Below, in pieces: positions 12,507 through 15,869 of a stretch of DNA of 50,934 nucleotides. This DNA comes from Acidobacteriota bacterium (GTDB lineage Bacteria > Acidobacteriota > Thermoanaerobaculia > Thermoanaerobaculales > Sulfomarinibacteraceae): NCBI GenBank assembly GCA_024641545.1, contig JAHECW010000012.1, positions 1 to 50,934 on the forward strand. The letters run 5' to 3'. Position numbers and translations under genes: made by a program. Every line of letters starts with the position of its first letter. Within the stretch, counting starts at the first letter, position 1. Under the pieces are notes generated by a model that saw nothing but the letters and a program-made list of their open reading frames with translations, searched no databases and was not told the DNA's origin.

Positions 12507-13259
12507 TCAAGCGCGTTCGGGATCCAGTTGCGGAGCATAGCGCCGGATCAGGCGCCGCACCTCGGTTGGATATCGCTCCCAGTTCTTGATGATCAAATCC
12601 GGCCGTCTGGTTACCGTCGACTCCACGGCCCGCTCGAGTCGCCACCTGGAAATCTTTTCATGGTTGCCCGATCGAAGGACATCCGGGACCTCGACTCCTT
12701 CGACTTCCGGAGGCCGGGTGTAGGACGGATGGTCGAGCAGACCGGCGGCAAACGAGTCCTCGTCGACGGATCCCGGGTCGCCGACGACACCTGGGACCAG
12801 CCGCGCCACCGTCTCCATCACGACCATGGCCGCGACCTCGCCGCCACCGAGGATGTAGTCACCGACGGAAACCTCATCGGGCTCGAGAATCTCGGATACC
12901 CGCTCGTCAAACCCCTCGTAGCGACCGCACAGCAGCACGAGCCGGGGCTCCCTGGAGAGTTCCTCGACCAGTGCCTGGTCGAGTACCCGACCGCGGGGCG
13001 AGAGCAACACGTTCCGCACCGGGCCGCCACGAGCCTCGAGTTCGCGAACCGCCGCAATCACCGGCGGCGCCTGGATGAGCATCCCCGGCCCTCCGCCGTA
13101 GGGTTCATCGTCGAGTTGGCGCCACTTGTTGTCGGCCCAGTCGCGCATGTCGTGGACGTCGATCCCGATCAACGCACTCTCGACAGCCTTGCCCAGCACA
13201 CCGGTGGTGCGGAAGCTCGAGAAGAACTCGGGGAAGATGGTTAGAACATCGAAATGCAT
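12507..13259 (-). CDS. trmD: tRNA (guanine-N1)-methyltransferase TrmD
   Basis: 250 residues, a normal length. Family motifs: FDVLTIFPEFF at the N-terminus, YGGGPGM, LLCGRYEGFDERV, SVGDYILGGGEVAAMV (the SPOUT trefoil-knot SAM site), and DEDSF..LLDHPSYTRP. The enzyme makes m1G37 in tRNAs reading CNN codons and prevents frameshifting. The start at 13259 gives the conserved N-terminus; upstream in-frame codons come from the palindrome and are not credible. A 26-bp palindrome lies between it and rimM (13336-13391). Confidence 0.96.
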   Translation of the reverse strand: MHFDVLTIFPEFFSSFRTTGVLGKAVESALIGIDVHDMRDWADNKWRQLDDEPYGGGPGMLIQAPPVIAAVRELEARGGPVRNVLLSPRGRVLDQALVEELSREPRLVLLCGRYEGFDERVSEILEPDEVSVGDYILGGGEVAAMVVMETVARLVPGVVGDPGSVDEDSFAAGLLDHPSYTRPPEVEGVEVPDVLRSGNHEKISRWRLERAVESTVTRRPDLIIKNWERYPTEVRRLIRRYAPQLDPERA

Positions 13260-13335
13260 TCTCGTGTCCACGTTTCTGACGCGGGTATTGAAACACATGG
13301 AAGTGGCGCAGCCAAATGAATCCCGTGGTTTTTCT

Positions 13336-13391
13336 TTTTTCCGCCCGGTGTTTTCGGGCGACAGGTCGCCCGAAAACACCGGGCGGAAAAA
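13336..13391. repeat. Perfect 26-bp inverted repeat with 4-base loop between rimM and trmD
   Basis: Arms 13336-13361 and 13366-13391, loop CAGG. The core is CCGCCCGGTGTTTTCGGGCG and its complement, with T5 on the left and A5 on the right completing the stem. Neither strand has a T tract after the hairpin, since runs of A follow it in both directions, so it does not look like an intrinsic terminator. It lies inside the transcript of the ffh-trmD operon, upstream of trmD. Confidence 0.9.
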
Positions 13392-13403
13392 GGGGGGGTC
13401 GGT

Positions 13404-13946
13404 TCAGGCTGTGATAAACGAATCGTCAAGAAGACCCGAGGGGGCGTCGATCGTCACCGTGCCGGCCTCGAGATCGACATCGACCACGATTTCGGGGACA
13501 TACGGCACGAGAAACTCGCGCCGTCCGCGGCGGACGATGAGCCGCCGCTGCCCCGGTCCCTGATCGACCCCGGTCACCTCACCGAGCTCATCGCCCTGCG
13601 GCGACCGGCAGGCGAGCCCGACGATGTGGTGCTCGTAGTAGAAGCCCTCGGGCAGCTCGTCGAGCGCTTGCTCCGGGAGATAGAGATACCGTCCGCGCCA
13701 GGACTCGGCCGCGTCGCGGTCGCGCAGGTCGCGCACCGACAGCAGCCAGCGGCCCTTGTGAAAGCGAATCTTGAAGACCTCGTGGAATTCGCTCGGGGCG
13801 GTCTCATCACCGAGTCCGAAGGTCATGCCGTCGGTCAGCCGTTCGGGAAAATCAGTGATGATGTCGACCAGAACGTCACCGTGGACGCCGTGCGGCTTCC
13901 CCGCCCGGCCCACGATGAGCCAGTTCCGGGAGTCTTCGGAGCTCAC
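13404..13946 (-). CDS. rimM: 16S rRNA processing protein RimM
   Basis: 180 residues. N-terminal domain motif VGRAGKPHGVHGDVLV, then the PRC-barrel domain (GFYYEHHIVGLACRS, EFLVPYVPEIVVDVDLEAGTVTI). RimM binds ribosomal protein S19 and aids maturation of the 30S head. The GTG start overlaps the last base of the khpA TAG stop (TAGTG), implying coupled translation. It sits in the standard rpsP-khpA-rimM-trmD order. Confidence 0.95.
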   Translation of the reverse strand: MSSEDSRNWLIVGRAGKPHGVHGDVLVDIITDFPERLTDGMTFGLGDETAPSEFHEVFKIRFHKGRWLLSVRDLRDRDAAESWRGRYLYLPEQALDELPEGFYYEHHIVGLACRSPQGDELGEVTGVDQGPGQRRLIVRRGRREFLVPYVPEIVVDVDLEAGTVTIDAPSGLLDDSFITA

Positions 13947-14185
13947 TACTCCAGGATTTCCAGCACGAACCGTTTGTGGATCTTCATCCCGGCGGCGGAA
14001 AGGAGGGTGCGAATCGCCCGCGCTGTCCTGCCCTGCCGGCCGATCACCTTGCCCAGATCCTCATTGCGGACCCGCAGTTCCAGAACGGTTGTCTGCTCGC
14101 CTTCGACCTCAGTCACCTGAACGTCTTCGGGATTGTCCACCAGCGCTTTCGCGATCTCTTCGAGTAGCTCTTTCATCGCACTCAC
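13946..14185 (-). CDS. khpA: KH-domain RNA-binding protein KhpA
   Basis: 79 residues. It is a single KH domain with the GXXG loop ([18 protein letters not shown]). KhpA partners KhpB/Jag in some Gram-positive bacteria and binds many RNAs; here the assignment rests on the sequence and the classical position between rpsP and rimM. The GTG start at 14185 is preceded by AAAGGAG six bases upstream; an internal ATG at 14176 is less well placed. Confidence 0.93.
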
Positions 14186-14223: not shown

Positions 14224-14484
14224 TCACACCTGCGGCACATCCTGCTTCTGCTTCATTGCCTTCTGGATCAAGGACTGGACGGTATCCGAGACTCCCGCGC
14301 CCTGCTTCTGCCACTCCTCGACCTTGTCGAGATCGATGTTGATCTCGGGGGGTTCCTGATTGGGGTCGTAGAAACCGACCTGCTCGAGGTAGTTCGCCAG
14401 CGGCGTCTTCCGCGAATCCGAAACAACAACCCGGTAGATGGGTTTTCTCTTGGCGCCTCCACGGCGCAGACGAATCATCAACAT
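14224..14484 (-). CDS. rpsP: 30S ribosomal protein S16
   Basis: 86 residues, typical for bS16. It begins MLMIRLRRGGAKRKPIYRVVVSDSR and contains LEQVGFYDPN, both family signatures. The C-terminal tail is short and polar. It lies 53 bases after ffh and 38 bases before khpA on the same strand. Confidence 0.97.
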   Translation of the reverse strand: MLMIRLRRGGAKRKPIYRVVVSDSRKTPLANYLEQVGFYDPNQEPPEINIDLDKVEEWQKQGAGVSDTVQSLIQKAMKQKQDVPQV

Positions 14485-14537: not shown

Positions 14538-15869
14538 CTACAGGCCCAGCTGTCGTTTCAGCGCCTTCGGGTCGGCTTTTCCAAGCCGTTTCATCAGCTT
14601 ACGCATTTGGCCGTACTGGCGCAAGAGGCGATTGATCTCTTCGACACTGGTGCCGGATCCCTTGGCGATCCGACGTTTTCGGGATCCGTTGAGGAGTTGG
14701 GGGTGCCGCCGCTCCCTGGGTGTCATCGAGTCGATGCACGACGAGAATCTCTTGAGCTGGCGCTCCTGACCCTCGGTGACGCCGCCCTTGGGCATCATTT
14801 TGTTCATGCCCGGCACCATCTCCATGACGGACTGCAAGGGCCCCATCTTCTTGAGGCTCTTCAACTGGTCTCTCAGGTCATCGAGGTCGAACTTGTTCTT
14901 ACGGAGCTTTTCCTCGAGCTTTCGAGCCTTCGTTTCGTCGATGACCCCCTGAGCCCTCTCGACCAGGCTGGCGACATCGCCCATCCCGAGAATCCTGCCG
15001 GCCATCCGATCGGGGTGGAACTGCTCGAGACCATCGAGCCGTTCGCCGACACCGGCAAAAACGATGGGGCGGCCCACAACCTCGCGCACCGACAACGCGG
15101 CGCCGCCGCGGGCATCGCCATCGAGCTTGGTCAGCACCACGCCCGTAATATCGAGCCGCTGATGGTAGGCGCGGGCGGAACGGACGGCATCCTGACCGGT
15201 CATGGCGTCGGCCACGAAGAGGATCTGCTTGGGCTTGAGGATCTCCTTGAGCCGTTCGAGCTGATCCATGAGTTCGTCGTCGATATGGAGCCGCCCCGCG
15301 GTATCGAAGATCAGGACCTGGTAGCCCTTGATGGAGGCCTCACGCAGCGCGCGCCTGGCGATTTCTTCGGGATCGTCCATGTCCCTGGTATCGACCGTCG
15401 GGATCTTGGCCTGCTCGCCCAACACCAGGAGCTGCTCCCGCGCGGCCGGTCTCGAGGTGTCTGCCGGGACCAGCAGCGGGAAGAGATTCTTCTTCTCTTT
15501 GATCCACTTTGCCATCTTGGCCGCGGTGGTGGTCTTGCCCGAGCCCTGCAGACCGACGAGCATGACCACGGCCGGCCGGCCCTTGAACTCGAGTTCGGTA
15601 GTGGAACCGCCGAGCAGCTCGACGAGCTCGTCGTGGACGATCTTGGTCACCATCTGCGCCGGGGTGACCGAGGTCAATACCTCACCACCCAGGGCGCGTT
15701 CACGCACCCTGGCGACGAACTTCGTGACCACCTCCACCGCCACATCCGCTTCGAGTAACGCGAGCCGAATCTCGCGCAACGCGGTGTCCACGTGGTACTC
15801 GGTGAGGTGTCCCTCACCGCGTAGAGTCTTGGTGACCCGACCGAGACGTTCCTGCAGCGCCTCCAACAT
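14538..15869 (-). CDS. ffh: Signal recognition particle protein Ffh
   Basis: 443 residues. NG GTPase domain: GLQGSGKTTTAAKMA (P loop), DTSRPAAREQL, DTAGRL, TKLDGDARGGAAL. The Met-rich M domain carries the 4.5S RNA-binding segment (SMTPRERRHPQLLNGSRKRR, IAKGSGTSVEEINRLL). Ffh binds signal sequences on the ribosome and targets membrane proteins through FtsY. It is the first gene of the ffh-rpsP-khpA-rimM-trmD(-dsbD) operon. The M domain tail is short, as in many bacteria. Confidence 0.97.
   Translation of the reverse strand: MLEALQERLGRVTKTLRGEGHLTEYHVDTALREIRLALLEADVAVEVVTKFVARVRERALGGEVLTSVTPAQMVTKIVHDELVELLGGSTTELEFKGRPAVVMLVGLQGSGKTTTAAKMAKWIKEKKNLFPLLVPADTSRPAAREQLLVLGEQAKIPTVDTRDMDDPEEIARRALREASIKGYQVLIFDTAGRLHIDDELMDQLERLKEILKPKQILFVADAMTGQDAVRSARAYHQRLDITGVVLTKLDGDARGGAALSVREVVGRPIVFAGVGERLDGLEQFHPDRMAGRILGMGDVASLVERAQGVIDETKARKLEEKLRKNKFDLDDLRDQLKSLKKMGPLQSVMEMVPGMNKMMPKGGVTEGQERQLKRFSSCIDSMTPRERRHPQLLNGSRKRRIAKGSGTSVEEINRLLRQYGQMRKLMKRLGKADPKALKRQLGL

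Follow-up and report, generated by a model that had tools for sequence, protein, structure and literature searches.

The perfect palindrome that lies between rimM and trmD in this bacterial genome is a member of a dispersed, genus-restricted family of intergenic elements, about 45–60 bp long, which form perfect or near-perfect palindromes. At many sites different species of the genus share a hairpin shape and its location, and the letters of the stem turn over, nearly always on both arms together. Our best overall explanation, to which we give a probability of roughly 0.6, is a genus-restricted family resembling REP elements, whose arms would be kept alike by template switching and whose RNA hairpin would act as a barrier. 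In the following, the window is the whole stretch of DNA analyzed (50,934 nucleotides), G000 is the genome carrying it, and G001 and G002 are genomes from the same genus, whose members are uncultured.

The palindrome between rimM and trmD

An inverted-repeat search placed the palindrome at 13336..13391, with a left arm (13336..13362) and a right arm (13365..13391), both as read on the plus strand, which are 100% complementary over 27 nt and separated by a 2-nt centre. This confirms the palindrome reported in an earlier note on this DNA. The note had described a 26-bp stem with a four-base loop; the predicted RNA fold has 25–26 pairs and a 4-nt loop. On either strand the element has five T's at its 5' end and five A's at its 3' end, and it is far ahead of the next-best inverted repeat of the window (23 nt, 87%). 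The fold energy of the isolated RNA is −50 kcal/mol and the z-score of the RNA hairpin is −6.6 in context and −9.8 alone.

The palindrome, supported by the repeat search, the fold and an ortholog in G001, was assigned to the minus strand together with the surrounding genes, which were identified by NCBIfam: ffh (signal recognition particle protein, 14538..15869), rpsP (ribosomal protein S16, 14224..14484), a gene for a KH-domain RNA-binding protein in an operon with rimM-trmD (13946..14185), rimM (13404..13946) and trmD (12507..13259). The stop codon of rimM, the upstream gene, is located 12 nt before the palindrome, and the ATG of trmD, the downstream gene, is found at 13259, 76 nt after it. 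Neither terminator-like nor sigma-70-like promoter sites were detected around the palindrome, at 13150–13650. No Rfam family scored above its gathering score for this element, and mir-35 (22.8 bits against a cut-off of 70.2) was rejected as a chance match to a long hairpin.

The earlier note had also proposed a genome search for the palindrome core. The core proved to be single-copy in G000, with one forward and one reverse match, both inside the rimM-trmD palindrome; when three mismatches were allowed one extra match was found elsewhere (C212). Since the core thus has one genomic place, an exact-copy repeat is ruled out.

A family of long intergenic hairpins

A search for the pattern T5C...GA5 returned a second palindrome of like build, and sampling of the genome gave more. 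Both G000 and G001 carry many intergenic palindromes of 19–29 bp, perfect or near-perfect, whose inner stems differ and whose 5' ends are T-rich, often TTCAATTCT or TCTTTTTTC. The T-first kind, to which the rimM-trmD palindrome belongs, has ends such as TTCAATTCT, TTCTTTTCT, TCTTTTTTC or TTTTTCC. A second kind among the long palindromes consists of an A-run, a GC stem and a T-run and resembles bidirectional terminators (L163, L183, L184, L197), and a few are of neither kind (e.g. in L135 and L129). Palindromes scoring at least 13 numbered 16 in 803,649 bases of G000, as compared to none after one dinucleotide shuffle of the same bases.

Long palindromes were counted at a score of at least 18 and a loop of at most 10, a count that mixes T-first, terminator-like and other kinds. 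G000 had 13 in 1,197,725 bases, five of them from stretches picked for a match (the window, C251, C166 and C295), and G001 had 10 in 241,927 bases, two of them from C168, which was likewise picked. None were found in G002 (114,721 bases), G006 (99,299) or G007 (79,238), at 27 trmD loci of the family or order (99,089) or at three named loci of the family (27,717). Among other taxa, two were found in 716,710 bases from 77 loci.

Where T-first elements lie between co-directional genes, nine of 11 start 8–33 nt after the upstream stop codon, as judged with a home-made gene caller. Among 33 elements there were seven non-Watson-Crick pairs, three of them G-T. In the G000 sample TTCAATTCT, a 9-mer, occurs 8 times against 2.5 expected, an excess too mild to support the reading of these ends as an uptake signal. 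In the open-licence PMC literature we found no report of such a hairpin family in this lineage.

The distribution of the family was further analyzed by model searches, in which only part of the first-look candidates (150, 107 or 21 per genome) were scored, so that all counts are lower bounds. A first model (R1), built from 10 elements including the rimM-trmD palindrome and its G001 ortholog, gave matches in at least two of 59 genomes, G000 and G001, at E 1e-4. A second model (R2), built from 16 elements without these two, gave at E 0.1 at least eight sites in G000, at least 11 in G001, at least three in G002 and at least one weak site (E 0.06) in G006; four of the eight G000 sites, seven of the 11 G001 sites and none of the three G002 sites belong to its training set. 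R2 recovered the G001 trmD palindrome, on which it was not trained, at E 7.9e-5. Among the matches listed for R2 at E 0.1 there were none in G005, G007, G009 or G011, and the rimM-trmD palindrome of G000 itself was absent. When the model search was extended to 297 genomes from the phylum, with a cut-off of E 1e-4, G000 alone was found among the matches listed. The recurring end motifs and R2 sites are seen in all three genomes of the genus, with different inner stems. A loose pattern search over the 59 genomes was uninformative, as the counts exceeded the reversed control in most of them and the places look like coding background.

Conserved sites with changing stems

The earlier note had suggested a comparison of the rimM-trmD gap in relatives, which revealed a palindrome in G001 and not in G002. 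In G001, whose TrmD is 86% identical to that of G000, the corresponding gap holds a 27-bp perfect palindrome, separated from rimM by 15 nt and from trmD by 71 nt. Three stem pairs differ between the two species, each on both arms, and the centre differs too; the elements are identical at 49/56 positions and the flanks at 236/297 and 230/295. A comparable palindrome before trmD was found at two of 30 loci examined (G000 and G001; 30 of 57 found loci covered), and the other 28, G002 and 27 loci outside the genus, had stems of at most 9 bp within 300 nt upstream of trmD. The palindrome is therefore not needed for trmD in general. The earlier claim that its perfection implies recent origin or strong selection is too narrow, as G001 has a palindrome at the same site and perfection has been kept while the arms changed together.

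The flanks of 13 G000 palindromes were sought in G001 and G002, and 10 of the sites were located in G001. Comparable palindromes were present at seven of these. The one at a gyr-type topoisomerase gene is perfect over 29 bp; the others measure 24 bp at iscR, 24 at C295, 19 at tilS, 23 with one mismatch at C14 and 24 with two mismatches at C9, and the fad counterpart has 22 with a 30-nt loop. Of the remaining three sites, lpxL and rsmA appear to have decayed, and at C51 there is no palindrome. The names gyr, iscR, tilS, fad, lpxL, rsmA and msrA are putative, based on the translations and on family features. The perfect palindrome at C42 is a different one in each of three species, and at msrA the palindromes of G001 and G002 differ.

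We then compared the stems pair by pair in nine ortholog pairs, selected for having a palindrome in both species (the fad, C9, lpxL, rsmA and C51 pairs were excluded). Out of 204 stem pairs 144 were unchanged, 55 had changed on both sides and five on one side, and all 55 both-sided changes led from one Watson-Crick pair to another. The alignments of gyr and of C42 between G000 and G002 are uncertain, and without them 31 both-sided changes stand against five one-sided. At the gyr site, which precedes a topoisomerase A-subunit gene, the stem has been rewritten: the element is identical at 25/53 positions, as compared to 278/299 and 254/299 in the 300-nt flanks (85–93%). An element can thus be much less conserved than its flanks, as at gyr, but this is not always so (trmD). 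At iscR and C14 the two species differ in the centre of the palindrome, one having T and the other A. The comparison covers three genomes of the genus, one of them sampled, from which the order of the stem changes cannot be reconstructed, and strong selection on pairing may have played a part.

Maintenance of the perfect stems

Two processes would be required to produce this pattern, one that changes both arms together and one that retains the hairpin in place. The first is probably template switching within the palindrome at replication (quasipalindrome correction), by which a change in one arm would be copied to the other and the arms kept identical. The mark expected of template switching, changes on both arms together, was observed in the nine chosen pairs (55 vs. 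5 in 204 stem pairs). Template switching fits since the arms are perfect, the differences are paired and span several bases, and the centres at iscR and C14 are T or A, a swap that is equally well explained by plain substitution. Inverted repeats corrected by template switching are known to share these features, including possible inversions of the centre; the difference is that here a whole set of sites in one genus is involved, with recurring end motifs.

Template switching is put forward as both maker and keeper of perfect stems in PMC8794818, according to which U-A pairs and G-C pairs should both be over-represented. In the 5' arms of our elements T exceeds A (255 vs. 104) and G does not exceed C (186 vs. 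216), so the simplest intrastrand switch model failed in its G-over-C prediction. How perfect stems persist is debated, between selection with stepwise compensation and a copying mutation, and in PMC8794818 the strongest evidence of that study for stem maintenance is called circumstantial. A genus with many long, perfect palindromes conserved in site offers replicate natural cases for testing stem maintenance, and would alter the reading of both-sided changes as proof of RNA function. It may be, at slightly less than even odds, that the sites pass on shape and not sequence, through repeated rewriting by template switching, so that orthologous hairpins would have position, polarity (T outermost at the 5' end, A outermost at the 3' end) and perfection in common but not their letters. 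If so, these genomes would preserve a natural record, genome-wide, of how quasipalindromes are corrected, together with selection that keeps a long hairpin, of RNA or DNA, in set positions. A self-perpetuating element without function is possible as well, because self-correction lowers the selection required for a palindrome to persist.

Alternative explanations

Perfect palindromes can arise artificially from a foldback read or a chimera, and the G000 assembly consists of 310 contigs. However, G001, a different assembly, has its own perfect palindrome at the matching place with paired differences, and the pattern is repeated at many sites across three genomes, which leaves an assembly artefact with a negligible probability. 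An artefact, or the lack of a homologue in close relatives, would according to the earlier note have overturned its reading; the homologue in G001 speaks against both. It is also highly improbable that the element is a bidirectional intrinsic terminator with an unusual tail. Like intrinsic terminators it has a GC-rich stem, a short loop and a location near a stop codon, and the palindromes with A-run, GC stem and T-run in the same genomes do look like bidirectional terminators. The rimM-trmD palindrome, in contrast, has the runs reversed and sits within a conserved operon. On both strands the stem is followed by an A-run instead of a T-run, and the earlier statement that this is not a standard terminator stands.

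The ends common to unrelated loci, the confinement of the family to one genus within the sequences searched and the absence of the element from a site near iscR in G002 would all suit a mobile element that is non-autonomous, like a REP or a MITE, with a transposase reading the hairpin or a terminal motif of the TTCAATTCT type. Y1 transposases (PF01797) are indeed present, with 17 matches in G001 and three in G002, but only two in G000, and no comparable palindrome was seen at seven Y1 loci examined (five in the genus, including two of the 17 from G001). No target-site duplication of at least 3 nt, as looked for in a MITE, was found in 28 elements, and the inner stems are too divergent for recent copying; we therefore regard mobility of this kind as unlikely. 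Of the suggestion of an inserted palindromic element, the dispersed, genus-restricted family is borne out, whereas neither a target-site duplication nor a linked transposase was found in the elements and loci examined. Ordinary selection on the RNA hairpin, with one-arm mutations later compensated and no special mutational process, agrees with the persistence of sites between species, with the high stability of the hairpins and with the G-T share of the non-Watson-Crick pairs (three of seven). Nevertheless, the excess of both-sided over one-sided changes leaves few intermediates, and whole stems have been rewritten (gyr, C42) while flanking genes stay similar, which makes selection by itself a doubtful explanation. 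We thus favor template switching within a family of retained hairpins.

Likeness to known elements and possible role in RNA

The family works most like REP elements and the protective hairpins of operons. REP/BIME elements (GTAG and CGTC families) are likewise short, dispersed, intergenic, often transcribed and confined to related species, with proposed roles in mRNA stability. In the family described here, by contrast, the inner stem differs at nearly every locus, no RAYT linkage was seen at the seven Y1 loci examined and REP tags are rare: within 8 nt, GTAG was found at three of 28 elements and CGTC at three of 28, with none at the rimM-trmD palindrome. REP stems are given as 5–13 bp in a section of PMC3733652, as compared to 19–29 bp in the family and 27 bp at rimM-trmD. 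As tags and stem length are unlike REP, with no target-site duplication and no Y1 link at the loci examined, we rejected a RAYT/REP identity and class the family as a variant intergenic palindromic element.

In the mRNA the 25-bp hairpin, a few nt after the rimM stop codon and without a U-tract, may form a barrier to decay or a processing barrier rather than a terminator, and such a barrier would allow trmD and the rpsP-rimM part to differ in level. An RNA role is suggested by the location of the T-first elements, nine of 11 beginning 8–33 nt after the upstream stop. From this we tentatively propose that the RNA hairpins may serve as decay or processing barriers between genes, a role for which we would put the odds below even; for the rimM-trmD hairpin, an RNA processing site or a stability barrier, both raised in the earlier note, appears plausible from the sequence. 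E. coli operon hairpins without a U-tract are described, in part of PMC5927463, as shielding the upstream mRNA from 3'-5' exonucleases. Those protective intercistronic hairpins (malE-malF type) are, according to the same part, also stable and near the upstream stop codon; perfect symmetry and stem turnover are features of the genus family, for which the role is a prediction.

Additional repeats

In G002 the rimM-trmD gap (L006 1116-1316) has 28-nt, 100% inverted arms 145 nt apart with GATCCC-like repeats, and the palindrome at the G002 topoisomerase site is likewise composed of repeats, of CGCGTC type. L135 carries a pair of related long palindromes spaced by about 900 bases (14055-14118 and 14930-14983), of the GGTCAGACGATTCAGA... 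type and not T-first, which fall within an open frame according to the home-made gene caller. L129 (2612-2656) and its G001 ortholog (L232) have long palindromes that differ between G000 and G001, and the right arm reaches, and in G001 enters, what seem to be the final codons of a gene in convergent orientation (GCATCTTC...).

A second repeat family in the G000 sample has a CATCGCA...TGCGATG core with AT-rich, roughly inverted flanks, e.g. ATTCATAATTC / GAATTATGAATT. The core had nine matches in the sample, eight of them with AT-rich flanks, and its places are L129 2548 and 9687, L143 3005, L145 1240, L160 6241, L252 39, L261 6962, L264 8856 and, in part, L134 10867-10963.
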